Part shown: positions 38,936 to 59,720 of the stretch, one piece after another
Layout of the letters: every line of letters starts with the position of its first letter
How positions within the stretch are numbered: position 1 is the stretch's first letter
Assembly: GCA_028622995.1 (NCBI GenBank)
Contig: JAJQJQ010000041.1
Location: forward strand, 2,046,001 to 2,110,000
DNA length: 64,000 nt
Origin: Panagrolaimus kolymaensis
Taxonomy: Eukaryota; Nematoda; Chromadorea; Rhabditida; Panagrolaimidae
Direction: 5' to 3'
The notes under the pieces: model-generated
What the model was told of the DNA's origin: nothing
The model's database searches: none
What the model saw: only the letters and a program-made list of their open reading frames with translations
Position numbers and translations under genes: made by a program

Positions 38936-41900
38936 ATGGGTTACAACAGCAGATTTTTACTGCTGATAGCGATATTAGCTCCTGCGTTTGCTTGGAATTT
39001 AAATCAATTATTTACACAATCAGAAGTAAGCCTTAGCTCTCATAATTTGAAACTAAAATTCTAATATTGCAAAAATTTTAGGATAATAATGGCGAAATAT
39101 ATTTGCATCCATCATCCCCTAAAGAAGCTTCACCAGAACGAATAAAACGACAAGCATATCAAGTTTATGTTGGTGGTGATACTTCAGTTTCCGTGGATAA
39201 AGGAGGCCAACAAGAAACAGGTGTTTGGGGTCAATGGACCAAAGATCGAGAATGTTCCAGAAGTTGCGGTGGTGGAGTTTTGATTGAAAAACGTCAATGC
39301 AAGTAAGTTCAGGCTTGCAAACGATATCTTTAAAAAAAATCTTTTTTACACAATTTTTTGCTTGAGATTAGTACTAACTATAAAAAATTTTAGCGGTCAA
39401 TGTTCCGGTCCATCAGTTCGATATGTTTCTTGCAACATTGAACCATGTGAAGCTGGATCCAAAGATTTCCGATCAGAACAATGTTCACAACACAATGATG
39501 AACCTTTAGATGGAAATTATCACAAAGTAATTAATCTTTTCCCCTATCTTTTTATATCTTTGACAATCTCATTTTTAGTGGCTTCCATATACCGGAAAAA
39601 ATAAATGTGAACTTACATGCAAACCCGATACCGCAAACTTTTATTATAAATGGGCTGATAAAGTTGTGGATGGAACTAAATGTGATCATTCATCCGATGA
39701 TATCTGTGTTGAAGGTGTTTGCCTTCCTCTTGGATGTGATGGAAAACTTGGATCAGCAAAAAAGAGTGATAAATGTGGAGTTTGTGGAGGCGATGGTTCA
39801 ACTTGCAAAACCGTTGACGGTATCTTCGATGAACGAAATCTTTCACCTGGATATCATAACATCATCCAACTTCCCGCTGGAGCCACTTCAGTCAAAATTG
39901 AAGAAATGCGTCCAACTCTCAATTCTTTAGCCCTTAAAAATTCAAGCGATTACTTTTTCTTAAATGGTAATTATCAAATTGAAGTAATGGATAAAGATGT
40001 CGAAGTAGCGGGAACTCGATTTAAATATGAAAAACAAAAAACTGATTCCACTGAACGTTTAACCGCTAAAGGGCCATTGGAAGAAGAAGTCACCGTTGCA
40101 TTACTTTTCCAACGAGGTGGTGGAAGTAAAGATAGCGCAATCAAATATGAATTTTCTGTTCCCATTGAACAAGATGTTCCATATCTTTATAAACCTGGAG
40201 AATGGTCATCATGCTCAGTCACCTGTGGAAAAGGAGTTCAAACTCGAACTCCATTTTGTGTTGATACATCCAATCAAAATCGAGCGGCTGATGATCTTTG
40301 CGATGATAATAATTCCACAAAACCCGAAATGGAAAAACCTTGCGAAACGGTAGATTGTGAAGCCGAATGGTATGAAGGCGAATGGGAAGATTGTTCACAA
40401 TCTTGTGGAGATCAAGGGTTCCAATATCGCGTAGTTTATTGCCATAAAGTTTATAAGGATGGTCGTCGCATGACTGTGGATGATGATAATTGCACGGATT
40501 CTCGCCCAGAAGTTAAACAATCTTGCAATCGATTCCATTGTCCCGAATGGCAAGCAGGTCCATGGTCAGCTTGTTCAGATAAATGTGGCGATGCTAAACA
40601 ATATCGTTCTGTTACATGTCGAAGTGAAAAAGATGGCGAAGAAGGCAAACTTCTTCCTGCAGATCATTGTAATGAAACTGAAAAAATCTCGGCTGAACGT
40701 GATTGCAATCTTGGTCCATGCGATGGTTTAACTTTCTTCCCATCCGAATGGAAACTTTGCGAAAAATGTAATGATACTGAAGAAACTCGAAATGTAACAT
40801 GCAAAGATAAAACTGGCCGACAATATCAACTTGAAAAATGTTTGAATGAAAATGTCACTCAAGTCCCTGTTGATACTCGAAGCTGTGCCACTGTTCAACC
40901 TTGTAATTATGAATGGCATGCATCAGAATGGTCTAAATGCTCCACCGAATGTGGACATGGACATAAAACTCGTAGAGTTAATTGTGCCATTGCAGAACTT
41001 GGACAAATTAAAGTTGTTGATGAAGGACTTTGTCAAGAAGACAAACCTGAAACTCGAACAAATTGCACCAATGAAGAAAAATGCACTGGAACATATTTTT
41101 CAAGTCCATGGACAAATTGTTCAGAAAAATGTGGAGGTGGAACACAATCTCGCTTTGTTGTTTGCTTAAATTATGATCGTCAACCCGTTCCTGAATGGTG
41201 TGATGAATCTGAAAAACCTGATGAAGAACAAGAATGCAATGCTGATCCTTGCCCAAGTAAGCATTAAAATAAAATTATTTTTTGTTTTAATACCAAATCT
41301 TTTTTTAGCTTGCTTTGATAGTGACTTTGGTTGCTGCCCCGATAATACCACTTTTGCCCAAGGTGATTGGTTTGAAGGTTGCACCAATTGTTCTCTTGCT
41401 GAATTTGGTTGTTGCGCAGATAATATGACAGAAGCCATAGGTCCCAATAATGAAGGATGTCCTGAATATGTTGAACCCGTTGAAGGTTCAGGCGAAGATG
41501 AAAAGGCTGGAACTGAAGCTCCAGAAGAATGTGAAGTTACTAATGAACAAACAGGCGAAAAAGTTAAAATTTCATGCGCTGATGCCGCAGGCAATGCCAC
41601 CGCTGATGCCCTCGATCTTTTCTTGTCTAATGACACCGATGATAATGCCACAATTCATTGTTCTAAAACTGAATTTGGTTGCTGTCCTGATTGGTATACT
41701 CCCGCAGAAGGCGCTAATAAAGAAGGATGCCCTGAATTTATTTTGGGTGCTTGCAATGAAACTCAATATGGTTGCTGTCTTGATAATGTCACCTTAGCTC
41801 GTGGCCCTAATCTTGAAGCTTGTGGTGAACCAAGTTGCGCTGCTTCACTTTTTGGTTGTTGTAAAGATAGAAAAACCATTGCGTTTGGCTCTCATTATGC

Positions 41901-44900
41901 TGGATGTGAACGTTCTTCATTCCCATGTGAATTATCTCAATATGGTTGCTGCCCCGATGGTGAAACCGCTGCTCTTGGAAAAAATAATACTGGATGTGGA
42001 GCTAATTGTCTCGTCACCAAATATGGCTGCTGCCCCGATGGCGTCACCGTTGCTAAAGGACTTTCCAATGAAGGGTGTGGTTGCGAATTTGCTCAGTTTG
42101 GTTGCTGCCCTGATGGCAAAACCGCTGCCCAAGGTGCTAGCTTTTATGGATGTCCCAATACTTGCGCTCAATCCCAATATGGTTGTTGCCCCGATGGAAA
42201 GACTGCTTCTCGAGGAAGCAATAAGGAAGGTTGCCCATGTCAATACACCCGATATGGATGTTGCCCCGATGGTGAAACCACGGCTCTTGGACCAAATGAA
42301 GATGGATGTGATGATTGTCGATATGCTAAATATGGATGCTGCCCCGATGGAGAATCCAAAGCCCTTGGAGCCGATTATCAAGGATGTCCATCAACTACTC
42401 TCGCTCCATTCCTTCTTGGTGGTACAGTTGCTCCATCCAAAATTGCTGCATGCAGTCAACCTCAAGACCAAGGAAACGTATGCCATGCTGGTTATAAACT
42501 TGTTTGGTTCTATGATGCCAGTGAAGGTCGTTGCTCGCAATTTTGGTATGGTGGATGTGGAGGAAATGAAAATAAATTTGCTACAAAAGAAATGTGTGAA
42601 ACCATTTGCGTTGAACCACCAAATACAGGACGCTGTTATTTACCCAAAGTTGAAGGCCCACAACGATGTAATCAACTTGTTGCTCGTTATTGGTATGATT
42701 ATTCCACCAAACAATGTGCTGCTTTCTGGTGGCGTGGATGCATGGGAAATGCTAATAACTTTGATACATGGGAGGCTTGTCAAACCTTCTGCAGCGGTGT
42801 CGGACCCATTGATGTTCAACCACCTACAACTCCAGCTCCCGCTACAGGACAATTACCATATGTTTATCAACCAACGAGTGCTCCAGCTTTCAATATTGAA
42901 AGCCGACCTGTTGATGTACCACGACGAGAAGAAATTCCTCAACATGGTCAACAACAACAATCTCAGCAATCTCAAGAACAACCACAACATCCTCAACCCC
43001 AACAGCCACAACAACCTCAACGAATTCCACAAGATTCACAAGGAGCTGCAGTTCATCTTGATAGTATGGTTCGTGCTCCATCTCAACCTCAACCTGGAAG
43101 TCAACCATGTATGTTTAAAACTTTTTTTAATATAATAATAAAAAATTACCCATAATCTGCACGAATTGCTAACAAACTCTCATATATAATCACGCTCGAA
43201 ATTGATTCACTAATTTTTCTAACTTTTTCTTTGCTTTAAAACAAATTTAACTATCGCTTTAGCGGCTTCACGATATCGTGAAGATCCTAATTGTCAATTA
43301 ACGGTTGATTCTGGTAAATGTAGTGATTTCCAAGATGCTTGGTATTTTGACACTTTTTCACGCAAATGTCATAGCTTTATATATTCTGGTTGTGGTGGAA
43401 ATGCTAATAGATATAGATCTCGGGATGAATGTGAACTCAAATGTGGAAGGCTTCAACCTGCAGTTGTTGCTCAAGGTAAATAACAAAATGCTTTTTTTTC
43501 TAATCCCTTCCTGCAACAAACAATAAAATTTTGTAGTTCGTCAAAGAGGTTCTGCATCACGTACTGGGCTTGTACATGGTGCAGGTGTGCGTCATTCTGG
43601 TCGTAAGTATACGTGATTAAAAAACTTTTTAATTAACACTTGCTTTTTTTACTTTCTAACTTTTTTATATTTTTTTAACTTTGTTTCTTTTACTAACAAT
43701 AATAATCTATTCCTCAGTTGAAAAAATCCAATATTTCAAAAAAAACTATCCCTAAGTTCTCTAACATCAAAATATTCAAAAAAATTATCATTGAATTTTA
43801 GCTAAATCTCGTGATGTTTGCCAACTTCGAATGGATGTTGGTCGTTGTTCTGGTCATTTCCAAGCATATTATTATGAAGTTGCTACAGGTTCATGTCAAC
43901 AATTTGAATATTCTGGATGTGGTGGAAATGCCAATCGTTTCCATACTAAAGAACAATGCGAAAATCTTTGCTCTCGCAGTCCCAATGTTCCAATTAGAAT
44001 TGGTTTAGCTGGAGCTGGTCGAGTTGGACAAGTTCCACAACATCCTGTTCCAGTAGCAGCAGCTGCAGCACAAAGTAAATTCTTACCTTTAAAAAAAGCT
44101 AGAAAATTACTAAAATTAATCGTTTTAAGCTAGTGGAGGCACTGGTGATTCTGCACCATGTGAACATCCAAAAGATACTGGACCATGTAATCGTTTTGTA
44201 ACCAAATGGTATTACAATAAGGGCGATGGCACATGCAATCGATTCCATTATGGTGGATGTGATGGAAATCCAAATCGATTTGAAAATGAACAAGAATGTC
44301 GACAAAAATGTGGTGATCACATTGGTAATTTTTTTCAACATTTTTTCCAAACAAACATCCTGGAAATTTTAGACACCTGTCATCTTCCTCGAGTTCCTGG
44401 TCCATGCGCAGGCAAAAATGAACGATTCTTCTTTAATACCGCAACCAAAATTTGCGAATCTTTCACTTATGGAGGCTGCCTTGGAAATAATAATAATTTC
44501 CGAACCATCGAAGAATGTGAAGCTCGTTGTGGAGGAAATCGTCAGTTTTATTAAATCTTTTCTTCTTTATTAAATTTCTCTAATTTTATTCATTCATTAT
44601 CTCTTTTTTTTTATAATAGTTTTTTAAAGTTCTGCCAAACTTTTTCGAGATTAGCCTAAAATTCATTATTATTAATTAATTTTATTCCAACATTTTAAAT
44701 TTAAAAAAATCGCTTTAATTATTTCCTAATCTTACTCCATAATAAAAATGCCATGCTTTAAGATAACCTCTTTTTTAACTAAAAAAACTGCCCAATTTTT
44801 TTCGTGTAAATCCATTTTATTAAAAAAAGTTATTTGCAATGAATTTACCCGATTTTTCTTAATATTTTTTTGAATGATTTCTGAATAAAAAAAGTTGATA

Positions 44901-47162
44901 GTTGTTTCTTTTTATAATTTTTTTGTTACCCAATTTCTTAAATTCCAATCTTTATTTTTGAGTCGTCTTTTCTTTTATCAAAAAATAATTCATGCCTAAT
45001 TGTTTTTTTACATTTATTTTTTAATGCTCTAAGCTCAGAATAAAGATTTAAATTAAAAATATTTTCTATAGGATCACCAAAAACAAATCCAAGAAATATG
45101 TGTTGTTTTCTTTGAGCTTTTTGTTTTTGTTTTTTTCTGTCTATCTTTTCGTTTCAGTTTTTGAGTGTTTTTATGCTTTCCTTTTTTTGATGTGTCTTTC
45201 AGTGTGTAACTTTGGTTAAAAAAATTTCTAAATCAGCAAGTCTTTCTGTTTCTTGAGTTTCTTGTTTTTGTGTTTGGTCTTTGTTTTTCATTAATTTTTG
45301 TTTGATGTCCCGTCCACTTTTATTTTTTCAGAACCCCAATTTGCGCGATTAACATATCCTTCATCACCTTCTGAAGTGAGTGTCATTAAAAGTCGTTGTG
45401 AATATCCAAAAGAAACAGGTCCATGTCGAGCTTTAATTCATATGTATCATTATAATCAAGAATTTAAAAAATGTGAAACATTCGTCTATGGTGGATGTGG
45501 AGGAAATGAAAATAAATTTGCTACCATTGAAGAATGTGAATCATTTTGTGGTTCAGCATCTCGATTTCAAGTGAGTTTTTTTGTTGGTGTTGTGGATATT
45601 TTATTTGTTTTTTTAACCCATACTAACATAATTATTTTTTCATTATTTGTTAACTCTATAGTTGCTACAGGCTTTAACATTGCCTGTTCATCCAGAAGTA
45701 TATCAAGAATTTCAAACTGGCGGCGGTAATGGAGATGAAAGTTATGTGGATATGGAAGAGCGAGAAGAAGCCCAAGTTTATGATGCCATTGATGAAGCTG
45801 AAGCAAATGAAAATATTCCATCTGAATTAAAACCAAATTCATCGGAAGCATTTTATTTTCCTCAAGTTATATCAGCTCTTCCCGAACTTTGTACTTTACC
45901 TGAAGATAGAGGAACTTGTTATGGTTCACATTTAAGTTGGAGATTTGATAGTGAAGCTCGATCATGCGTGACTTTTTCATACACTGGTTGCAAACATAAT
46001 GCAAATTATTTCACATCTGACGAATCTTGTGAACGAGCATGTGGCACTTATCGAGCTGTGGATGTTTGTCGGCAACCCAAGGAATCAGGGCAATGCCATC
46101 AACGAGTTACTCGATGGTATTTTAACCCCAAAACAAATGAATGTCAAATGTTTTTCTGGAGCGGATGTGGCGGAAATGGAAATCGCTTTTCATCCAAAGC
46201 TGGATGCCAACATTTATGCCATCAAGAAATTAAAGTTCAAGCAAATGAAAAAGATATCTGCAATCTTGAACGTGATGTTGGCCCTTGTAATGATGCATTG
46301 ACTCAATGGTATTTTGATAAAAAAGATAAAGAATGCAGAATCTTCACATTTGGCGGATGTCGAGGAAATGGAAATAGATTTAATAGTCAAGAAGAATGCG
46401 CAACTAAATGTAAACCAAAATCCCAACAAATGAAGCTTCATCATACTTCAATGTGTAGGCAACCCGTGGCATTTGGACATTGTGAAGGTAATGAAGTTAA
46501 ATGGTTCTTTGATCCTAGCGATGAACAATGTCGCACTTTTGCTTACACCGGCTGTGGTGGAAATGAAAATAGATTTGATAGTGAAGAAACTTGCGTTAAT
46601 TCATGGTAAAAAACAAAAAGTTTTAAAGTCTAAAATAAAATCCCCAATTTTTTAGTCGCCCACATCGAAGAGTTGTAACTGTTACAAACACTCAAACTTT
46701 ACCACCCAAAGTTCGACCTCTCAATCCTGGTCCATACATTGCTGGGTCAAATGTTGAATTTCGATGTGTAACAGAAACAAATTCTACAGATTTTGCATGG
46801 TTTAAAGATAAAACACAAATTGATGAAACTTTTGTAAATGCCAGATATGTCTTTAGCAATATGAAAGACACATTCACAATTAAAGGAATTCAAAAAGATG
46901 ATGCAGGAAAATATTCATGCGCTGCAGGAACTATGGGAATTTTATCTCAACTTGAGGAAGTTCAAGTTAAAGGTACAATATCCAATCTTTAAAATTTGCC
47001 AAATTATGAATCCAATTTTTAGATCCACCTTCCCCCGAATTTTGCCTTGATAAAGGTACACCAGCCACATGTGAACTCATTCGTAAAACCAGTCTTTGTT
47101 CAAATGTAAGATACGGTAAATTCTGTTGTCAAACTTGTACGAGATCGGGTTACAAGTTTTAA
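38936..47162 (+). CDS. mig-6: Papilin / MIG-6 long form, 2158 aa
   Basis: Fourteen exons: 38936-39025, 39082-39302, 39394-39526, 39579-41256, 41309-43108, 43263-43475, 43537-43602, 43802-44074, 44130-44324, 44373-44540, 45332-45570, 45662-46605, 46656-46972, 47023-47162; 6477 nt, phases consistent. Domain order: signal peptide (1-19); TSP1; ADAMTS-type Cys-rich and spacer (about 105-325); six more TSP1 (about 330-705, the fifth, FFPSEWKLCEKC, degenerate); eleven lagrin repeats of the form [F/Y]GCCPDGxTxAxGxxxxGC (about 708-1070); eleven Kunitz domains (about 1085-2007); Ig; and PLAC ending RSGYKF. A Gln/Pro-rich spacer follows the second Kunitz. The sixth Cys of the last Kunitz is built across the 46605/46656 junction. 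Papilins are secreted basement-membrane glycoproteins; MIG-6 is needed for distal tip cell migration and matrix remodelling in C. elegans. An acceptor-like TTTTTAG lies 33 nt before the ATG. The PLAC exon and 3' UTR belong to the tandem duplication. Confidence 0.95.
44373..44554 (+). CDS. mig-6: Alternative terminal exon of the papilin short form
   Basis: The exon with the sixth Kunitz domain normally splices at 44540. If it is read through, the frame adds only Arg-Gln-Phe-Tyr and stops at TAA 44552-44554. The short protein would have 1616 residues: all TSP1 and lagrin repeats and Kunitz 1-6, without Kunitz 7-11, Ig and PLAC. The following intron (44541-45331, 791 bp) is the longest in the gene and holds AATAAA at 44741 and 44884. 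As I recall, C. elegans makes MIG-6L and MIG-6S with just this split after Kunitz 6, so a conserved alternative 3' end is the best reading. The long-form donor (C|GTCAGT) is weak, as expected for a regulated choice. Confidence 0.65.
44741..44746 (+). terminator. Candidate poly(A) signal for the papilin short form
   Basis: AATAAA 187 bp after the short-form stop, inside the longest intron. A second copy is at 44884-44889. Confidence 0.4.
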
Positions 47163-47268
47163 TGATACATAAAAAAATAATCTCAAGCTTTAATAATTAT
47201 TTCTTTGTTCTTTGTTTTTATAATTTTTTTACGTTTATGTGTAAATATTTTTGTTGGTTATTTTTTTA

Positions 47269-47278
47269 AATAAATAAA
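47269..47278 (+). terminator. Poly(A) signal of the papilin long form
   Basis: Two overlapping AATAAA motifs about 110 bp after the TAA at 47160-47162. They are repeated in copy 2 of the duplication. Confidence 0.5.
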
Positions 47279-47589
47279 CTTTGACAAATCAGACTCTTTA
47301 AAAAAACAGAAACATTTAAAGTTCATAAACTTTATAAAAAAGAGGCATCAACCTTTTGAAGTTTATATGGAATAGAATGAAATTCATTGTATCATGGTAT
47401 TTTTTGCTAATACTTGAAAATAAACACTATTGTTGCGATCCACTCTAAATAAATGTATATGCAAATTGCAGCCATCAAACTTCTCAAACTTCATTGATCG
47501 AATTTATTGTTGAAAATTTTAATTTCGTGATTCGTATTTTTTACTTGTTTTTGTTGTTTTAGATTTTAAGCAATCAATTTTTGTCTAAT

Positions 47590-48380
47590 ATGGATGATTC
47601 AAATATGGATGTTATCAAATCCTTCAAAAATATGAATACATCTGAAGAAGAACCAATCTTTGCTTTCAATTCACTTCCATGGGTTTGTCAAAAACGTTTT
47701 GCTGAAATTTGTGATCCAGAAACCTTGAAAACGTTCGCTCAAATCAATGGTGAAACAAGAAATCTCGTCAAAAGATGTCACACTATTGAAGATGCAGAAA
47801 TCACGATGAATGTTACAAATGAAATATCTTGCAAATACAAAGCTGCTTGTTATTGTAAAGAAGATGAGTATTGTAAAGGAATCAATGCTGACGAATTTTC
47901 AACATTCCATGCTAAATTCGATGTTATGAATTCAATCACAATCAAAGCTGCTATGGAACAAAAATTTGATGCTCTTTTCCTTCATTATTTACCAATCAAT
48001 CTTTATTCATGCAAACGACTCAAAATTTTTGTTAAATCTATGGATCTTGGAGATTTAAAGAAATTAATCGCACCTGAATGGGAACATTTAGAATTTCGTG
48101 GCGGTTTTAACACAAATGATTCATTGGAAGAATTCATTGATTTCATCAAAAGTTTATCTTCACAGCTTGATTCATTCTTGTAAGTTTACTTCTTCTTCCT
48201 CTGCTATAAAACTTTCATAACGTTTCGACTTTCAGCTTTTATGGCAGCAGTACTACTTTATCATTCAATGTTAATGCTTTACTTCAACAATGTCATATCC
48301 TCAAATCTCAAGCATTTATCAAAGATTTTATTACAATTCAAATGCCTCCAAATGTTTTAAGCGTTTGTTTTGATAAATAA
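47590..48380 (+). CDS. F-box-like family protein, duplication copy 1, 244 aa
   Basis: Exons 47590-48179 and 48236-48380 (245 codons with TAA). The ATG lies 27 nt after an AG acceptor (47561-47562), the same spacing as in the relative at 60858, so the mRNA is probably trans-spliced. Residues about 22-70 look like an F-box: LPWVCQKRFAEICDPETL, then hydrophobic positions and LVKRC. A conserved Cys cluster follows (ACYCKEDEYCKG), then an LRR-like or F-box-associated C-terminal half with ITIKA, LPINLYSC, KSMDL and FIDFIKSLSS. If the F-box is real, the protein would bind a Skp1-related protein and pick substrates for an SCF ubiquitin ligase. That is inference from a weak motif. The protein is identical to copy 2 at 53394. 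Confidence 0.8.
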
Positions 48381-48835
48381 TAATGTTCATATTTGTGTAT
48401 ATTTGTATCTATGTAAATAAAAGTAAAATTAATTTGTTTGATTTAATTTAAGGTCACATTGATCGGGTAATAATGAATACGAACAAGAAGGATCGCTAAA
48501 GCCAATAACCATAATAAGTAACACTAATTTAAGGATAAATTATTTCTCAAACATATTTCATTAATGCCATTGATATTGCACCTGTCCAATTGCGACGTTT
48601 TGTTACCCTTTTTGCAGCTGAACTGCAAGTTTTCTTTTGTTTCGACAGATTTTATTCCAAGATTGGAAAATTTTATCCGATTATCATTTACTATCGGTAA
48701 TTGGAAAACAAATTAAGAAACTATCAAAACAAAAGTAAATGAATTTGCTGTAAAATTGTTAAAAATTTTATTTATTATTTTCTTTATATTACAAATTAAA
48801 ATTGAATCAAAACATGATCATTTTTCATTCTTCTT
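48381..48835. other. Convergent intergenic spacer, copy 1
   Basis: It holds the 3' UTR of the F-box-like gene (AATAAA near 48416) and the region after the stop of the opposing membrane-protein gene. No further feature seen. It is identical in copy 2. Confidence 0.5.
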
Positions 48836-51148
48836 TCATTTGTGCTTCTTTTTGCTTTTCTTTCTTGAACCACTTTGAGTTGGTTGAGATTTGACGATGA
48901 TGATCTTATTCTTGTTCTTCTTCATTTTTTTGCTTTCTTGAGTTACGTCTTCAGCTGGCTTTTTCTTATGATCGATGACCGTTGATTGGTTGCTTGGTTG
49001 AGATTGATTAGAAGGCTGCTTTTCTCGAGACTTTGAATCGGTATCAAGACCATCAATGCTTGTGAAAGCTTCAGGATTCTTAAAATAAGCATTTTCGAGG
49101 ATGTTGATTGGAAAAGCTTTAGATGATCTTTCTCGAAGAGTATAATCATGCTGGATAGTAGGAGCTTGACGACTAAAAAATAACAGTAAAAAATGAGTTA
49201 AAACGTATGTATGAAGGATTTACCGTATCCAAGTGCATGCTTTGCGACGGTTGAAATCCGGAAATTGGGTCCTCAATGCAATGACCATAAGAAGAGGAAG
49301 CGAAAACTTATGGATCATGCCCAATTCAGATGTAATGTATTCAGAGTATTCAGCACCAAAAGCAAAGTAAACGATGTATTCAGGAGTTGAACGAAGTTTG
49401 AGATATTCACGAGCTTTTTCTGTCATATGTGTGATTCGCTTCTTGTCATCGAACTGAACACCATATCCAACAAGTTCCCTTTCAGCTTCAGCACTAAAAA
49501 ATTAATGATAAATGTTTAAAAAAAAGAATGTAAAAACAAACCTCATTCGATTCAATTCAGCAAACATTTCAGAGATTGAACAGAGGAAGATGTTGATTTC
49601 ATTATCACGAACAGCTCTGCCTCTCACTGGAGCATAAGTCCTGAAAACAAAGATTATTAACTTTTAAATAAAGTGTTATAAAACTCACTTTCTCATTTGT
49701 CCAACTTCTTTAAATGACAATTTCTCGAGACAATCATGACGTGAAAGTGAATCAACATGGGATTCAACAAGAGCAATTTTGTTGACGTCCATTCGTTCAG
49801 AAACAGAGTGAGTTCCAGATTTGAGAGACTTTGCTTTGTTGTATTCTGATCGATATGCCATAGGATATGCAACATGAGGATTTATTGGAGCGATCTTCTT
49901 TGGAGCTTTAACGACGACAGGAATCTTCTCAGCAGATGGTTCAGTCTTTTTAGCTTTTGCTTGTTCTTCTTTTTCTTTTGGCTTTGAAGCAGCATCTTTA
50001 ACTTGTTCAACTTTCGAATCCATTGCCGGTGTCATATGTTCTTCGTGTTCTACTTCATTGCCTTCAACTTCTGCTTTCTTTGGAATGTTCTTTATAGGCG
50101 ATTCAGGCATTTCTATTACGACCTTTTTGTTTTCCATAGCAGCAGCTTTGTATTGACCTTCAGGAGGACCTTGCTTCCTTGACTTTCCTTTCTTAATGAA
50201 CCAGACACTAAAAGCATATTTTTATAGTAGTCAAAAATCATACACAAACTTACGCGATCACACACAAAATGTTCAAGATAATGAAAGAACCAACACCAAT
50301 GAGTATCCAACCATAAAGAGGAAATCCAGCTTCATCAGTCGTTGATGTTGTCGATGATGTTAATGATGTTGATGATGCTTCAGTAGTTGTAGTTGAACCA
50401 GTTGATGGTGGCTTGATCTTTGCATTTTTCTATAAAGAACAATGACAAAATGACAGAAATGTATAAAAAAAATATACCACTGTAAGAACACAGGATGGTG
50501 AAGCACTTTTGACAAAGAGTTTAACATTTTTATCATTACCCCGTGCACATCCATCACTTTGAATATTAAGTTTCGTTACATCATTTACAAAAAACTTTGT
50601 TACAGTACTTTCAATTGTAGCATGACCACATTTTTGAATAAGGTTATTGGGTTGAGCTAAAAGATAAAAGATTAAAAAAAGAAGATTAGAAATGATTAAA
50701 TTACCTCGTCTTTTATCCATAAACCATATATATAAACCATCAAAGCCAGCAATAAATGAACATTGATTTGAAGAACCAGTAGCTGGTGTTCCATCGAAAG
50801 ATACACTTACCCTAATAATGAATAAATAAGCAGTGAAAAAATTGTAAACACTTACATCCCATTGCATTCAGGAGTACAAAATTCAAAAGTTAATTCACCA
50901 TCGATAATAACATCAATATTACCAATATCTGATATATCAACATCTTTACCATTTTGTGTTCCAATTGAAGGCGATGGTTGATCGTCAGAAGAAAGATAAT
51001 CAAGTTGGTCATTGAAGTTTTCATTGGTTTTGATGGATGAAAGAACTGTATCATTTGTAGCAAGAAGTCGATTCGGTCGAATAAAAGCCCATGAAGATGA
51101 AACAAGCAAGAGAAGAGTCAAGACAACGTTGAAAGATGACGACGTCAT
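48836..51148 (-). CDS. Type-I membrane protein with variable ectodomain, copy 1, 659 aa
   Basis: Eight exons in transcript order: 51148-50856, 50811-50705, 50656-50478, 50429-50254, 50207-49689, 49640-49542, 49493-49224, 49172-48836 (660 codons, stop TGA). The ATG at 51148 opens a signal peptide (MTSSSFNVVLTLLLLVSSSWA). Ectodomain: acidic N-terminal stretch, then a Cys-containing module at about 90-193 (CTPEC, NQCSF, QKCG, DGCARG, PSCVL), then a Thr/Ser-rich stalk at about 200-225. One membrane helix lies at about 234-256, followed by KKGKSRK. The cytoplasmic part, about 400 residues, has a Lys/Glu-rich linker, an ordered segment (about 430-565) that I do not recognise, and a strongly basic tail (KKMKKNKNK ... 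SRKKSKKKHK). The layout suggests a receptor or adhesion protein. Residues about 95-170 fall in the block that differs from copy 2. The intron at 50657-50704 is absent from copy 2. Confidence 0.85.
50541..50872 (-). other. Diverged block in copy 1 (332 bp)
   Basis: The two units are identical up to ...TATCATTACC (50540/56344) and again from AGTACAAAATTC (50873/56635). Between these points they do not align as DNA, introns included. The block holds the core of the ectodomain and two introns here. Several further single-base differences cluster within about 60 bp of the left edge (50895-50935), so divergence tapers off on that side. Confidence 0.85.
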
Positions 51149-51634
51149 TGCAAATGTCAAAATTGTACGAATGATTACAAAAACGATGTCATGCTCGCCT
51201 TAAGTAGAAAAAATAGCATTCGAAGTTTTGGAAAATTTGCATAAAAAATAATCAATTCATTTTTTTTTACAGAAAAATGGTTCTTGCTTTGCAAAGGTTG
51301 TAAATTGGATGAAAAGTTAAAACTAAAATCTTTGGTAAGCCAACTACTAAAAAATAAAAAATCGCTATATCGTAATATTCATCATTACTATCGATAATTT
51401 ATCGAAAGTTGCATAAAAATAAGTTTCGAAGTTTTTATTGAACTTCATTTTCATTTTCCTGGTGACTTACACAAAAGGGATGTGATAATGATTATGAAAC
51501 ATATTTCAAGAGTAATAAATTTATTTAAAAAAGGCTATTGAAAAGCAACAAAAAAGGAAAGATGTACAAACAAGTAATAAAAAACAAAACAAAAAAGAGT
51601 AAAGTATGTACAATATTTACAAAAAGAAAAAAAA
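51149..51634. other. Upstream region of the membrane-protein gene, copy 1
   Basis: 486 bp between the start of the membrane-protein gene and the end of the coiled-coil gene, both on the minus strand. It should hold the promoter of the former. A palindromic ATCGATAAxxTATCGA-like sequence is seen near 51391-51407. No coding feature. Confidence 0.5.
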
Positions 51635-52658
51635 TCAAAACATGGATTTATGAAGGAGTGTTTGAATTGTCATAAGAGCTTGATTGACTTGTTGATTCTT
51701 CTCACAAGATTTAATTTGAAGGTTTTGCATATCCCTTTCCAAGCCTGAGATTATAACATCATAGTGATTCTTCATGGATTTGAATGTAATAATTTCCTCG
51801 TTTTTTGTAGCAATTTCCAAACGGGCATCTAGTAATTGACTATCAAGAGCATCCTTTTCTTCAGAAAGAGATTGAATACGGCGTTGATCTTCAGAAGCAT
51901 CCATAGAAGCTTGATTGATTTGTCGATATTTAAGAGAAATTTCGGCTTGTGCATCTTCCAAGCGTTGATTCAAGCTTTTGACAGAAGTTCCAAGTTCAAA
52001 CTTATCAACAATCAATCTTGCATTAGATGTTGTTAAAACGTCTATTTTCGAAAGTACTTCATTCAATAAATACTTGAGAGCACGATTATCATTAGAAAGT
52101 GAATGAACACGAGAAACAGCACTAGCTAGTTGTTGTTTAATGACACGACATCCATTTTGAAGCTTTACCACATTCTTTTGCAAACCATCGATTTTAACTT
52201 CATATTGATTCTTCAAGGATTTGAATGCAATAATTTGTTCATTTTTTGAAGCAACTTGCAAGCGAGCATCTTGTAATTGATCATCAAGAACATATTTTCG
52301 ATCAGAAAGAGTTTGAATGTGGTTTTGAGCTTCAGCGAGCTGGTGCGTCTTATCAGAGTATTCGATTAGAAGTTCTTTGATAGTTTCACATTCCTTCTCG
52401 ATTTCAACCTTAAGATCGTCGGTTTTCGCTTCGAACAAGGTTTTATCGGTTTCTTCAAAGTAAGCATCTTCTGGGAGATTTTCAAGATCGTGCTTTTCTT
52501 CAACAGAAACAGTGGAATCATCATTTGCAACAGTCAAATCTTCACTTTGATTCGGTTCATTCAACGACATTTCTTTCTAAAAATACATACGAAATTAGTC
52601 TTCCTTATTAAAAAAAACTTACCATTTTTGCAACACTCAATTCAAACAATTGAAACAT
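51635..52658 (-). CDS. Coiled-coil protein with internal repeat, copy 1, 325 aa
   Basis: Exons 52658-52623 and 52576-51635 (326 codons). The ATG at 52658 (MFQLFELSVAKM) is in frame with the main exon across a GTAAG/TTTTTAG intron, and an AG acceptor lies about 28 nt upstream. Starting at 52570 is possible but would ignore this intron. Residues about 1-60 are acidic; the rest is a long heptad-rich coiled coil. Two segments resemble each other: about 98-166 (IQTLSDRKYVLDDQLQDAR...) and about 245-316 (IQSLSEEKDALDSQLLDAR...), so the coil grew by internal duplication. There is no signal peptide or membrane span. I see nothing that identifies a family; many coiled-coil scaffolds look like this. 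It differs from copy 2 by one residue (Leu in NLPEDA, His in copy 2). Confidence 0.78.
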
Positions 52659-52826
52659 TATTGTTATAGCAATTGGAAACAGTATCTAAAACATAAAAAT
52701 CAAACATATTCTTTTAACATGCGAATGGAAATAAAATGACATGAATTGAAAGGACAACACTAATTATTAGGAAGAAAAATCAAATATATCAATTTCGATT
52801 GAGAAATAAACAAATCCAATTTTTAG

Positions 52827-52966
52827 ATCCACCTTCCCCCGAATTTTGCCTTGATAAAGGTACACCAGCCACATGTGAACTCATTCGTAAAACCAGTCTT
52901 TGTTCAAATGTAAGATACGGTAAATTCTGTTGTCAAACTTGTACGAGATCGGGTTACAAGTTTTAA
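52827..52966 (+). pseudogene. Orphan papilin PLAC exon
   Basis: Exact second copy of the last papilin exon (47023-47162), with its acceptor and 3' UTR but none of the upstream gene. The reading frame, six Cys and stop are intact. With no promoter or start it is a by-product of the duplication. In principle it is an alternative terminal exon, reachable only if the exon at 47023 were skipped. Confidence 0.85.
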
Positions 52967-53393
52967 TGATACATAAAAAAATAATCTCAAGCTTTAATAA
53001 TTATTTCTTTGTTCTTTGTTTTTATAATTTTTTTACGTTTATGTGTAAATATTTTTGTTGGTTATTTTTTTAAATAAATAAACTTTGACAAATCAGACTC
53101 TTTAAAAAAACAGAAACATTTAAAGTTCATAAACTTTATAAAAAAGAGGCATCAACCTTTTGAAGTTTATATGGAATAGAATGAAATTCATTGTATCATG
53201 GTATTTTTTGCTAATACTTGAAAATAAACACTATTGTTGCGATCCACTCTAAATAAATGTATATGCAAATTGCAGCCATCAAACTTCTCAAACTTCATTG
53301 ATCGAATTTATTGTTGAAAATTTTAATTTCGTGATTCGTATTTTTTACTTGTTTTTGTTGTTTTAGATTTTAAGCAATCAATTTTTGTCTAAT

Positions 53394-54184
53394 ATGGATG
53401 ATTCAAATATGGATGTTATCAAATCCTTCAAAAATATGAATACATCTGAAGAAGAACCAATCTTTGCTTTCAATTCACTTCCATGGGTTTGTCAAAAACG
53501 TTTTGCTGAAATTTGTGATCCAGAAACCTTGAAAACGTTCGCTCAAATCAATGGTGAAACAAGAAATCTCGTCAAAAGATGTCACACTATTGAAGATGCA
53601 GAAATCACGATGAATGTTACAAATGAAATATCTTGCAAATACAAAGCTGCTTGTTATTGTAAAGAAGATGAGTATTGTAAAGGAATCAATGCTGACGAAT
53701 TTTCAACATTCCATGCTAAATTCGATGTTATGAATTCAATCACAATCAAAGCTGCTATGGAACAAAAATTTGATGCTCTTTTCCTTCATTATTTACCAAT
53801 CAATCTTTATTCATGCAAACGACTCAAAATTTTTGTTAAATCTATGGATCTTGGAGATTTAAAGAAATTAATCGCACCTGAATGGGAACATTTAGAATTT
53901 CGTGGCGGTTTTAACACAAATGATTCATTGGAAGAATTCATTGATTTCATCAAAAGTTTATCTTCACAGCTTGATTCATTCTTGTAAGTTTACTTCTTCT
54001 TCCTCTGCTATAAAACTTTCATAACGTTTCGACTTTCAGCTTTTATGGCAGCAGTACTACTTTATCATTCAATGTTAATGCTTTACTTCAACAATGTCAT
54101 ATCCTCAAATCTCAAGCATTTATCAAAGATTTTATTACAATTCAAATGCCTCCAAATGTTTTAAGCGTTTGTTTTGATAAATAA
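53394..54184 (+). CDS. F-box-like family protein, duplication copy 2, 244 aa
   Basis: Exons 53394-53983 and 54040-54184, the same structure as copy 1 at 47590. I found no difference in the coding sequence or introns. The upstream acceptor, 27 nt before the ATG, is also kept. The same tentative F-box role applies. Having two identical copies next to each other may simply raise dosage. Confidence 0.8.
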
Positions 54185-54639
54185 TAATGTTCATATTTGT
54201 GTATATTTGTATCTATGTAAATAAAAGTAAAATTAATTTGTTTGATTTAATTTAAGGTCACATTGATCGGGTAATAATGAATACGAACAAGAAGGATCGC
54301 TAAAGCCAATAACCATAATAAGTAACACTAATTTAAGGATAAATTATTTCTCAAACATATTTCATTAATGCCATTGATATTGCACCTGTCCAATTGCGAC
54401 GTTTTGTTACCCTTTTTGCAGCTGAACTGCAAGTTTTCTTTTGTTTCGACAGATTTTATTCCAAGATTGGAAAATTTTATCCGATTATCATTTACTATCG
54501 GTAATTGGAAAACAAATTAAGAAACTATCAAAACAAAAGTAAATGAATTTGCTGTAAAATTGTTAAAAATTTTATTTATTATTTTCTTTATATTACAAAT
54601 TAAAATTGAATCAAAACATGATCATTTTTCATTCTTCTT

Positions 54640-56910
54640 TCATTTGTGCTTCTTTTTGCTTTTCTTTCTTGAACCACTTTTAGTTGGTTGAGATTTGACG
54701 ATGATGATCTTATTCTTGTTCTTCTTCATTTTTTTGCTTTCTTGAGTTACGTCTTCAGCTGGCTTTTTCTTATGATCGATGACCGTTGATTGGTTGCTTG
54801 GTTGAGATTGATTAGAAGGCTGCTTTTCTCGAGACTTTGAATCGGTATCAAGACCATCAATGCTTGTGAAAGCTTCAGGATTCTTAAAATAAGCATTTTC
54901 GAGGATGTTGATTGGAAAAGCTTTAGATGATCTTTCTCGAAGAGTATAATCATGCTGGATAGTAGGAGCTTGACGACTAAAAAATAACAGTAAAAAATGA
55001 GTTAAAACGTATGTATGAAGGATTTACCGTATCCAAGTGCATGCTTTGCGACGGTTGAAATCCGGAAATTGGGTCCTCAATGCAATGACCATAAGAAGAG
55101 GAAGCGAAAACTTATGGATCATGCCCAATTCAGATGTAATGTATTCAGAGTATTCAGCACCAAAAGCAAAGTAAACGATGTATTCAGGAGTTGAACGAAG
55201 TTTGAGATATTCACGAGCTTTTTCTGTCATATGTGTGATTCGCTTCTTGTCATCGAACTGAACACCATATCCAACAAGTTCCCTTTCAGCTTCAGCACTA
55301 AAAAATTAATGATAAATGTTTAAAAAAAAGAATGTAAAAACAAACCTCATTCGATTCAATTCAGCAAACATTTCAGAGATTGAACAGAGGAAGATGTTGA
55401 TTTCATTATCACGAACAGCTCTGCCTCTCACTGGAGCATAAGTCCTGAAAACAAAGATTATTAACTTTTAAATAAAGTGTTATAAAACTCACTTTCTCAT
55501 TTGTCCAACTTCTTTAAATGACAATTTCTCGAGACAATCATGACGTGAAAGTGAATCAACATGGGATTCAACAAGAGCAATTTTGTTGACGTCCATTCGT
55601 TCAGAAACAGAGTGAGTTCCAGATTTGAGAGACTTTGCTTTGTTGTATTCTGATCGATATGCCATAGGATATGCAACATGAGGATTTATTGGAGCGATCT
55701 TCTTTGGAGCTTTAACGACGACAGGAATCTTCTCAGCAGATGGTTCAGTCTTTTTAGCTTTTGCTTGTTCTTCTTTTTCTTTTGGCTTTGAAGCAGCATC
55801 TTTAACTTGTTCAACTTTCGAATCCATTGCCGGTGTCATATGTTCTTCGTGTTCTACTTCATTGCCTTCAACTTCTGCTTTCTTTGGAATGTTCTTTATA
55901 GGCGATTCAGGCATTTCTATTACGACCTTTTTGTTTTCCATAGCAGCAGCTTTGTATTGACCTTCAGGAGGACCTTGCTTCCTTGACTTTCCTTTCTTAA
56001 TGAACCAGACACTAAAAGCATATTTTTATAGTAGTCAAAAATCATACACAAACTTACGCGATCACACACAAAATGTTCAAGATAATGAAAGAACCAACAC
56101 CAATGAGTATCCAACCATAAAGAGGAAATCCAGCTTCATCAGTCGTTGATGTTGTCGATGATGTTAATGATGTTGATGATGCTTCAGTAGTTGTAGTTGA
56201 ACCAGTTGATGGTGGCTTGATCTTTGCATTTTTCTATAAAGAACAATGACAAAATGACAGAAATGTATAAAAAAAATATACCACTGTAAGAACACAGGAT
56301 GGTGAAGCACTTTTGACAAAGAGTTTAACATTTTTATCATTACCACGATCGCAACCAGAAGCACGAAGAGAATCTTGAGCCGTGATATATTTCATTTCAT
56401 AATGAATTTTAGCTTCACCACATCCTTGAGCAAATTTTTTTTCTGTCGATGATGCCATAAACCATAAAGTGTCACTATCTACTTTAACAATAAACGAACA
56501 TTGATTCGAACATTTGGTTACACTCGTAGGACTTTTTACACCATCAAAGCAAACGCTAACCCTAAAATATGCCTTTATTTAAATTGCCAGACAAAGTCGA
56601 AATTAACTTACTCTCCTGTAGTTGTGCATCGATCAGTACAAAATTCAAAAGTTAATTCATCATCGATAATAACATAAATATCACCAATATCTGATATATC
56701 AACATCTTTACCATTTTGTGTTCCAATTGAAGGCGATGGTTGATCGTCAGAAGAAAGATAATCAAGTTGGTCATTGAAGTTTTCATTGGTTTTGATGGAT
56801 GAAAGAACTGTATCATTTGTAGCAAGAAGTCGATTCGGTCGAATAAAAGCCCATGAAGATGAAACAAGCAAGAGAAGAGTCAAGACAACGTTGAAAGATG
56901 ACGACGTCAT
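54640..56910 (-). CDS. Type-I membrane protein with variable ectodomain, copy 2, 659 aa
   Basis: Seven exons in transcript order: 56910-56612, 56561-56282, 56233-56058, 56011-55493, 55444-55346, 55297-55028, 54976-54640; 660 codons, the same length as copy 1. Signal peptide, stalk, membrane helix and cytoplasmic region match copy 1 except for one Gln-to-Lys change near the C-terminus (54681). The ectodomain core (about residues 95-170) is only distantly similar: VSVCFDGVKSPTSVTKCSNQC here, against VSVSFDGTPATGSSNQC in copy 1. The framework (NQCSFI, WFM, CG, GNDKN) is shared. Copy 2 has two extra Cys (VSVC, TKC) in that core and encodes it in one uninterrupted exon where copy 1 has two. This looks like two alleles or paralogous versions of one receptor-like ectodomain on a common body. 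Confidence 0.85.
56345..56634 (-). other. Diverged block in copy 2 (290 bp)
   Basis: Counterpart of 50541-50872. It holds most of a single fused ectodomain exon and one 50-bp intron whose sequence is unrelated to that in copy 1. Confidence 0.85.
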
Positions 56911-57396
56911 TGCAAATGTCAAAATTGTACGAATGATTACAAAAACGATGTCATGCTCGCCTTAAGTAGAAAAAATAGCATTCGAAGTTTTGGAAAATTT
57001 GCATAAAAAATAATCAATTCATTTTTTTTTACAGAAAAATGGTTCTTGCTTTGCAAAGGTTGTAAATTGGATGAAAAGTTAAAACTAAAATCTTTGGTAA
57101 GCCAACTACTAAAAAATAAAAAATCGCTATATCGTAATATTCATCATTACTATCGATAATTTATCGAAAGTTGCATAAAAATAAGTTTCGAAGTTTTTAT
57201 TGAACTTCATTTTCATTTTCCTGGTGACTTACACAAAAGGGATGTGATAATGATTATGAAACATATTTCAAGAGTAATAAATTTATTTAAAAAAGGCTAT
57301 TGAAAAGCAACAAAAAAGGAAAGATGTACAAACAAGTAATAAAAAACAAAACAAAAAAGAGTAAAGTATGTACAATATTTACAAAAAGAAAAAAAA

Positions 57397-58420
57397 TCAA
57401 AACATGGATTTATGAAGGAGTGTTTGAATTGTCATAAGAGCTTGATTGACTTGTTGATTCTTCTCACAAGATTTAATTTGAAGGTTTTGCATATCCCTTT
57501 CCAAGCCTGAGATTATAACATCATAGTGATTCTTCATGGATTTGAATGTAATAATTTCCTCGTTTTTTGTAGCAATTTCCAAACGGGCATCTAGTAATTG
57601 ACTATCAAGAGCATCCTTTTCTTCAGAAAGAGATTGAATACGGCGTTGATCTTCAGAAGCATCCATAGAAGCTTGATTGATTTGTCGATATTTAAGAGAA
57701 ATTTCGGCTTGTGCATCTTCCAAGCGTTGATTCAAGCTTTTGACAGAAGTTCCAAGTTCAAACTTATCAACAATCAATCTTGCATTAGATGTTGTTAAAA
57801 CGTCTATTTTCGAAAGTACTTCATTCAATAAATACTTGAGAGCACGATTATCATTAGAAAGTGAATGAACACGAGAAACAGCACTAGCTAGTTGTTGTTT
57901 AATGACACGACATCCATTTTGAAGCTTTACCACATTCTTTTGCAAACCATCGATTTTAACTTCATATTGATTCTTCAAGGATTTGAATGCAATAATTTGT
58001 TCATTTTTTGAAGCAACTTGCAAGCGAGCATCTTGTAATTGATCATCAAGAACATATTTTCGATCAGAAAGAGTTTGAATGTGGTTTTGAGCTTCAGCGA
58101 GCTGGTGCGTCTTATCAGAGTATTCGATTAGAAGTTCTTTGATAGTTTCACATTCCTTCTCGATTTCAACCTTAAGATCGTCGGTTTTCGCTTCGAACAA
58201 GGTTTTATCGGTTTCTTCAAAGTAAGCATCTTCTGGGTGATTTTCAAGATCGTGCTTTTCTTCAACAGAAACAGTGGAATCATCATTTGCAACAGTCAAA
58301 TCTTCACTTTGATTCGGTTCATTCAACGACATTTCTTTCTAAAAATACATACGAAATTAGTCTTCCTTATTAAAAAAAACTTACCATTTTTGCAACACTC
58401 AATTCAAACAATTGAAACAT
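57397..58420 (-). CDS. Coiled-coil protein with internal repeat, copy 2, 325 aa
   Basis: Exons 58420-58385 and 58338-57397, the same structure as copy 1 at 51635-52658. One amino-acid difference (His for Leu at about residue 46, base 58238). The acidic N-terminus, long coiled coil and internal repeat are unchanged. The spacer to the membrane-protein gene (56911-57396) is the same as in copy 1. Confidence 0.78.
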
Positions 58421-58864
58421 TATTGTTATAGCAATTGGAAACAGTATCTAAAACATAAAAATCAAACATTTTCTTTTAACATGCGAATGGAAATAAAATG
58501 ACATGAATTGAAAGGACAACACTAATTATTAGGAAGAAAAATCAAATATATCAATTTCGATTGAGAAATAAACAAATAGGTTAATTACTGTGACAAAAAA
58601 TCATGCTTGAACCAAAAAATGCGCGGGAAATTGCGGCGTTTTTCAATGCCAAAATGTCTTGACACATAAAAATTACTTACATATTTTTTATTCTTGTTTT
58701 GGTTGCATTTATTTTGTGATACATATTTTTGGAAGCCTTTTACAAATTTACAATTAACTGAAACGTAGCGTGATAATATGATAATTTTCTTCAGCTGTTT
58801 ATTTTTAACATTCTTTTTACATACTTCTTTTTTTAGGTTCTTCGTCAACGAATCTGTGCCAAAT

Positions 58865-59720
58865 ATGAACGATTCAAAAATTATTGCAAAGAAGTTTCGG
58901 AGTAATTCTCAAGTGGTTGTAAAGAAGCTTATCAAATTTTGTAAGAAGAATATGAAAGGAAAGCACTCAACAGAAGATACCTTTGATTTCCAAACACTTC
59001 CATTTCCATTGGTATGTCAAAAACGTTTCGCTGAAATTTGCGATCCAGAAACATTGGCTGTCTTTGCTCAAATCAATGCTAAAACAAGAAATCTCGCAAG
59101 GGGCTGTCATATAATTAAAGATGCTGAAATCCTGATAGATGATTCAAATGAAATCTCGTGCAAATACAAAGTTGCTTGTTATTGTAAAGAAAACGAATAT
59201 TGCAAAGGAATAACTGCTGACGATCTTTCATCCTTCAATGGTAAAATCAAAGTTATGAATTCAATCACAATCAAAGCAACTGAGGAACAAAAAGTTGATT
59301 ATACTTTGCTTCAACATTTACCTGTAAATCTCAATTCATGCAAACATCTCAAGCTCATTGTTAAGTCTATGGACCTTGAAACTTTGAAGAAACTAATAAC
59401 TCCTCAAATGAAAAGTTTGGCATTTCATGGTGGTATTGAATCAAACTGTTCCTTGGATAAATTCGTCGATTTTATTAAAAGCTTATCAGCAAAGCTTGAC
59501 AAATTTCTGTAAGTTCTTGTTTTATGTATGTATAATATTTGTTTAACAATCACCTATTTGTAGATTTTATTTATATAGCAACCAAAGTTCGTTATCATTC
59601 GATTTTGTTGCTTTAATTCAACATGATTCCATTCTTCAATCTCAAAATTTCAAACATCGCATAACACATTTACCTAATGGTGATTCCTTCGTTTATTTCA
59701 TCAAAGACTTTAAATTGTAA
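58865..59720 (+). CDS. F-box-like family protein, 266 aa
   Basis: Exons 58865-59508 and 59564-59720 (267 codons). The ATG (MNDSKIIAKK) follows an AG acceptor by 28 nt, as in its relatives. A basic N-terminal extension (about residues 6-32, rich in Lys/Arg) precedes the box LPFPLVCQKRFAEICDPETL. The Cys motif (ACYCKENEYCKG), ITIKA, LPVNLNSC, KSMDL and FVDFIKSLSA follow in family order. The second exon (SNQSSLSFDFVALIQ...) is homologous to that of the duplicated genes but ends differently. It lies just outside copy 2, so it is an older paralogue; the diverged middle shows that the family was already here before the recent duplication. Same tentative F-box role. Confidence 0.8.

Follow-up and report, generated by a model that had tools for sequence, protein, structure and literature searches.

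Two tandem gene copies in the nematode Panagrolaimus kolymaensis carry different versions of one short ectodomain block on bodies that are nearly identical, and the comparison of their relatives across the genome shows that such cassettes are exchanged between loci and between chromosome copies. Both copies lie in a 64,000-nucleotide stretch of DNA (hereafter the window, in which all positions without a contig label are counted) on a contig labelled C40, and the genome that was searched comprises 265.8 Mb in 807 contigs. The published assembly is presented in its report as triploid, with 266 Mb in 856 contigs, and 49 mitochondrial contigs are reported (PMC10374039). We consider it likely that the genes represent a germline family of type-I membrane proteins in which ectodomain cassettes are shuffled by gene conversion or unequal exchange and bodies are homogenised, and in which, as its inferred functional side, ectodomains would bind variable partners, selection would favour variety, and a common signal would be passed on.

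The two tandem units, 47009..52815 and 52813..58577, abut with an overlap of 3 bp and are equal save for six bases and the block. A first-pass annotation of the window had described twin units of 5.8 kb that differ at about three bases; their near-identity is real, and the count is six differences in 5,475 aligned bases outside the block. An offset of 5804 is valid over 47009-50540 (3,532 bp) with a single difference, at 48877, and an offset of 5762 over 50873-52815 (1,943 bp) with five (50898, 50914, 50920, 52476 and 52708), and the two units agree almost completely everywhere but in one block. Three of the substitutions cluster next to the block (50898..50920, minus strand) and had been read as the border of a conversion tract, a reading that does not hold. 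They lie to the right of the block on the plus strand, on its 5' side in gene sense, and are amino-acid replacements, one found only in copy A and two only in copy B by comparison with the nine other genes read from body clade 1; because each is private to A or to B, with no donor sequence, they mark no donor tract.

The variable block covers the middle of the ectodomain in both copies. Type A, in copy A, occupies 50541..50872 on the minus strand (332 bp, residues about 93-172) and contains introns 1 and 2, and type B, in copy B, occupies 56345..56634 on the same strand (290 bp) and contains intron 1, the second intron being absent. The in-block introns had been called unrelated, and intron 1 of copy A (50812..50855, minus strand) is indeed unlike that of copy B (56562..56611, minus strand), with intron 2 (50657..50704, minus strand) present only in A. 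The further statement that the block does not align as DNA is too strong. It barely aligns, with 249 aligned columns at 75.5% identity and 124 gap positions, identities between block types being aligner-dependent because cross-type alignments hold many gaps; yet a distant relationship between the two blocks is evident from their global alignment score of -71, which beats the best of 200 shuffles (-114; mean -147). In coding sequence, about 97 of 234 sites differ between the two blocks, and none of 405 sites differs across residues 196-330.

Copies A and B are known here from spliced gene models, built from sequence only. Copy A (48836..51148, minus strand) encodes 659 aa in eight exons (51148-50856, 50811-50705, 50656-50478, 50429-50254, 50207-49689, 49640-49542, 49493-49224 and 49172-48836), and copy B (54640..56910, minus strand) encodes 659 aa in seven (56910-56612, 56561-56282, 56233-56058, 56011-55493, 55444-55346, 55297-55028 and 54976-54640), the numbers differing because A carries the extra in-block intron. 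Residues 1-330 of copy A were recovered by spliced alignment, and copy B is likewise supported. Read by eye, the product is a predicted type-I membrane protein with a signal peptide, a linker, a Cys-framed ectodomain of ~100 residues, a Ser/Thr stalk, a transmembrane helix and a long cytoplasmic part. The exon for the stalk and transmembrane helix (50254..50429 in copy A, 56058-56233 in copy B, minus strand) is identical in the two models, and the cytoplasmic body of copy A extends over 48836..50207 (minus strand), including exon 7 (49224-49493), which was matched genome-wide. No Pfam family (Ig, lectin, CUB, LRR or others) matched the ectodomain above the curated cut-off, and PDB sequence searches returned nothing under E 0.9, the best profile match (E 0.91) being a ribosomal protein. 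Predicted structures were poor, with pLDDT values of 30 for exon 2 of copy B and 50 for cytoplasmic exon 7, which are too low for a fold search.

A pattern derived from the membrane exon of the genes read had 68 matches in the genome, 64 of them exact, and the reversed control had none; the family is large and has no Pfam match above cut-off. Cytoplasmic exon 7 gave 150 scored matches of 305 candidates, and among these 150, in identity bands counted by hand, the near family accounts for 66, with 20 places at 94-100% (11 on C40, five on C5 and four on C3) and 46 at 69-80%, mostly on C41, C48 and C50. The same 150 include 84 further places at 33-54% (e.g. on C9, C2, C17, C8, C44, C58, C62, C1, C13, C26, C12 and C53), which puts the receptor family within a much larger superfamily. 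A relative at 69-72% occurs once each at C3:3923516, C5:7185677 and C11:520626 and is possibly a stable outgroup copy. On C40:1770000-1800000, six receptor bodies are arrayed 4.8-5.4 kb apart, two of which were read; another of the six (C40:1777588-1778215), located but not read, is apparently truncated. It is one of the damaged-looking copies, along with two C50 models that have odd splice sites.

Altogether, 35 genes were read, which become 31 distinct genes once four C50 genes with a block equal to that of another C50 gene are removed. Body clade 1 comprises 11 genes, on C40, C5 and C3, and body clade 2 comprises 24, of which 20 are distinct. The first-pass annotation had proposed looking through the whole genome for more versions of the block, and the 35 genes encode 31 distinct block proteins around a fixed Cys framework. 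Mean pairwise protein identity, taken in 15-residue windows over 330 residues, is mostly 0.65-0.94 and lies at 0.35-0.60 at residues 121-165 in both clades; the hypervariable positions lie at residues of about 123-174. Wherever aligned, Cys 95, 115, 143, 170 and 189 and Trp127-Phe128 are, among others, invariant.

When the 31 distinct genes are compared in all 465 pairs, body and block come apart in both directions. The body stretch compared was intron 4 with cytoplasmic exon 5, and pairs were retained as sharing a body with different blocks when the body was less than 1% and the block more than 20% different. Four of the 465 pairs qualify, all tandem pairs, on four contigs, with bodies that are identical over 553-558 bp and blocks that are 31-48% different (123/266 in the window pair, 127/266 in the C5 pair, 89/270 in the C3 pair and 84/273 in the C50 pair). 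Types A and B make up both the C40 and the C5 pair, so the four are not fully independent. The four dropped C50 genes supply a fifth pair, with identities of 1.000 in a shorter body and 0.750 in the block. Along the C50 pair, an identity of 94-100% gives way to 58-65% in the block and then recovers; the C5 pair goes down to 60% in the block and has a separate 80% window far away from it; the C3 pair, in 200-bp windows, goes down only to 73-84%, with low values that continue into the stalk and a second low stretch upstream. The block is the main site of divergence in same-body pairs, but not always the sole one.

In the reverse direction, four of the 465 pairs combine bodies that are 5-8% different with a common block, in which 0-5 of about 290 bp differ. 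The C5/C3 pair has 0/290 differences in the block versus 76/1114 elsewhere (Fisher 1.7e-8), and the C48/C50 pair has 1/288 versus 85/1107 (5e-8). Three of the four are not independent, because all represent block B on three chromosome copies, and the C48/C50 pair is independent of these. The proposal that an entire segment, together with its introns, varies independently of the remaining gene is thus upheld by its recurrence in four tandem pairs and in the reverse direction, whereas a single swap event does not describe a pattern that is repeated in this way and that includes the same block on different bodies. Both marks of germline exchange between loci, one body with different segments and one segment on different bodies, were found.

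Phylogenetic trees of the 31 genes gave a similar picture. The two body clades are separated, at 100% support, in both the body tree and the exon-1 tree, and the block tree does not separate them: block A of the window groups, with its C5 counterpart, beside L004, a clade-2 gene on C50 (95% support), and the third block type, on C3, falls among clade-2 blocks. Each of the block, exon-1 and body data sets rejects the trees of the other two (AU p <= 4e-4), and the mutual rejection of body and exon 1 means that recombination extends beyond the block. Intron 1 of three genes with clade-1 bodies (L005, L006 and L007) matches clade-2 introns with z 6.0-6.5, above all 100 shuffles, and does not match that of window A (z 1.4-1.5); for L008, the likeness of intron 1 to clade 2 is weak, one match being slightly above its shuffles and one not. 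Presence and absence of in-block intron 2 both occur in each body clade. Among related blocks, an in-block intron is exactly missing from C48_495001_3980 and C50_1572001_18112 by comparison with C48_1624001_15350, and both splice sites carry an ATAGGTT repeat; a cDNA route for the exact loss of intron 2 was not invoked, since such a direct repeat permits simple deletion.

Within the block, recombination was evident as mosaics, for which parents were picked by eye and shuffles were scanned only at every third breakpoint. On these terms, the block of C50_910001_15836 is a two-parent mosaic that breaks sharply at a single point (informative sites 27:4, then 0:33; reached by 0/300 shuffles), the L007 block holds a short B-type tract (0/300 shuffles), and C3_15770 is a three-part mosaic by appearance whose single-break test was not significant (28/300 shuffles). 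Breakpoints thus lie within the segment or at its edge, with two of the three mosaics supported. In the four-gamete order test, the value observed in the block was reached by 2/500 shuffles in clade 1 and 6/500 in clade 2.

Besides itself on C40, the 3-kb stretch 40001-43000 of the window has full-length matches at 97% on C5 and C3, as well as three short partial matches, and for this reason C40, C5 and C3 are taken as three pseudohaplotypes. In window orientation, C40 carries A followed by B in units of 5.8 kb, C5 carries B followed by A in units of about 9.1 kb, and C3 carries the third type followed by B in units of about 4.5 kb. Block A is present on two of the pseudohaplotypes, being found again on C5 at 94.9% identity, and block B on all three, being found again on C5 and C3 at 98.3% identity. 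Unit lengths, breakpoints and block order all differ, so that the three do not share one duplication, and A and B therefore predate these arrangements or moved between them. The differing arrangements point to separate duplications, each catching two block types, as would follow if an old allelic polymorphism had been turned tandem by unequal crossing-over between A- and B-bearing chromosomes. This history is conceivable for the locus, though we would put it at distinctly less than an even chance, and it is a special case of the cassette shuffling favoured here, with which it is compatible. Even so, it needs a separate transfer for block B, which is unchanged between C5 and C3 on flanks that differ at 76 of 1114 sites, and the common block of C48 and C50 represents exchange away from the window locus.

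In clade 1, synonymous divergence (dS) was 0.50 in the block, 0.09 in the N-terminal exon, 0.22 in the membrane-proximal stretch and 0.14 in the stalk-transmembrane-cytoplasmic part; the corresponding clade-2 values were 0.40, 0.19, 0.26 and 0.16. The ratio of the block value to the others is thus ~2-6 for the N-terminal exon and the stalk-transmembrane-cytoplasmic part and 1.5-2.3 for the short membrane-proximal stretch. Block lineages therefore look old, and selection acting only on the protein cannot account for the pattern, as the first-pass annotation had argued from the introns, because synonymous divergence too is raised. As at loci of the MHC or S-locus type, block lineages look older than their flanks (dS 0.40-0.50 versus 0.09-0.26) and are common to diverged chromosome sets. 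It does not share the dN/dS above 1 of such loci, and positive selection was not found with Nei-Gojobori counts pooled over sites, which gave a block dN/dS of 0.59 in clade 1 and 0.85 in clade 2; the clade-1 N-terminal exon had 0.78.

Ratios below 1 would be expected if concerted evolution were passive, that is, if A and B were old paralogs at which conversion of the flanks stalls because the block is over-diverged, with no selection for variety. The tandem pairs, which drop most identity at the block, fit this account as well, and for block A the divergence of C40 from C5 (94.9% identity) is similar to that of the flanks. However, the blocks themselves move, near-identical blocks being found on diverged bodies and some blocks being mosaics, and 31 distinct block proteins in 35 genes with a fixed Cys framework exceed what heterology alone would lead one to expect. 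We regard the passive account as unlikely.

Cassette architecture and a constant body would also suit somatic or developmentally programmed diversification from an archive of silent cassettes, which we judge highly improbable because no orphan cassettes occur among the matches checked. Cassette matches lay less than 1,000 bp from a membrane exon in 44/56, 46/46 and 36/37 cases in three match sets, of which the first two scored 40/69 and 40/65 candidates and were not a full census; the sole exception in the third is a seemingly truncated gene copy. A silent donor archive of the VSG type was rejected, as no body-less cassettes are among the matches listed. An assembly chimera or collapsed haplotypes, which the first-pass annotation had named as a danger and which a triploid assembly and near-identical units might invite, is scarcely credible, and mis-assembly appears very unlikely, because block A recurs on C5 and block B on C5 and C3 in other arrangements, the same pattern is found on C50, and the assembly is reported as HiFi with a read N50 of 14.4 kb (PMC10374039) versus 11.6 kb for both units together.

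If the genes form a germline receptor family with shuffled ectodomain cassettes, the bodies in local arrays would be repeatedly homogenised or freshly duplicated, and the ectodomain cassette would persist as many old, distinct versions. Cassettes would travel, as complete blocks or as fragments, from copy to copy, among the three chromosome sets and sometimes across the two diverged body clades, presumably by germline gene conversion or unequal crossing-over, which are inseparable for the window pair. Selection for variety may keep the blocks apart. From the sequence pattern we infer a putative recognition role, in which the ectodomain would bind variable partners, either microbial surfaces or conspecific molecules, and the conserved cytoplasmic part would relay a common signal. 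More tentatively, and falling somewhat short of an even chance, the more than 60 near relatives, in a superfamily of at least 150 places with one cytoplasmic domain, could constitute an undescribed nematode recognition system in which ongoing germline exchange in a triploid asexual lineage generates ectodomains for pathogen or conspecific recognition.

To our knowledge, no family of diversified recognition receptors has been well characterised in nematodes, and a constant body with a shuffled ectodomain offers a concrete candidate. If true, a parthenogenetic triploid would show how variety at such genes can be kept or renewed via exchange between chromosome sets. The MHC, plant S-receptor kinases and other trans-species polymorphic receptors have old lineages in a short recognition segment and recombining flanks, a likeness to the genes described here, whereas they represent one locus with alleles and here there are many loci, known from one assembly. 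Trypanosome VSG and similar antigenic-variation archives exchange outer parts by gene conversion, a further likeness, but no silent archive is seen here among the matches checked. Germline families diversified by exchange are already known, as in the MHC, plant S receptors and sea urchin 185/333 genes. For 185/333, gene conversion and recombination have been suggested as the source of diversity (PMC1988830). By description, these genes likewise form a large clustered germline family with block-wise mosaics, but they are small two-exon genes that differ by presence or absence of elements, unlike the type-I membrane protein predicted here, which has several exons and a single replaceable ectodomain (PMC1988830). 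Lamprey variable lymphocyte receptors share conversion-like cassette assembly, but this is described as somatic and as starting from incomplete germline genes, whereas the genes read here are complete in the germline assembly (PMC13428168). The closest nematode case among the literature searched is SELF-1 of Pristionchus pacificus, a small peptide with a hypervariable C-terminus that is linked to kin recognition (PMC10721034). It resembles the present genes as a nematode gene having paralogs with a common frame and a hypervariable part, and differs, on comparison by description only, as a small peptide versus a 659-aa membrane protein; the part of the article at hand does not mention cassette exchange (PMC10721034). 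The main text of one 2026 review of animal immune diversification contains neither 'nematode' nor 'elegans' (PMC13428168). No comparable nematode membrane-protein family was found in the titles and abstract openings covered by mostly narrow searches of open-licence literature, which is weak evidence of novelty.

Other genes in the window accompany the receptor genes. A gene for a coiled-coil protein of 311 aa was co-duplicated with each of them (51635-52570 and 57397-58332, minus strand), and this protein had no Pfam match above cut-off. A small gene family with a CQKRFAEICDPETL motif alternates with the receptor genes on the plus strand (about 47590-48381, 53394-54185, 58866-59720 and 61.0-61.7 kb); one of its exons had no match in Pfam, and its copies on C3 and C5 cross-match those of the window at 75-78%.
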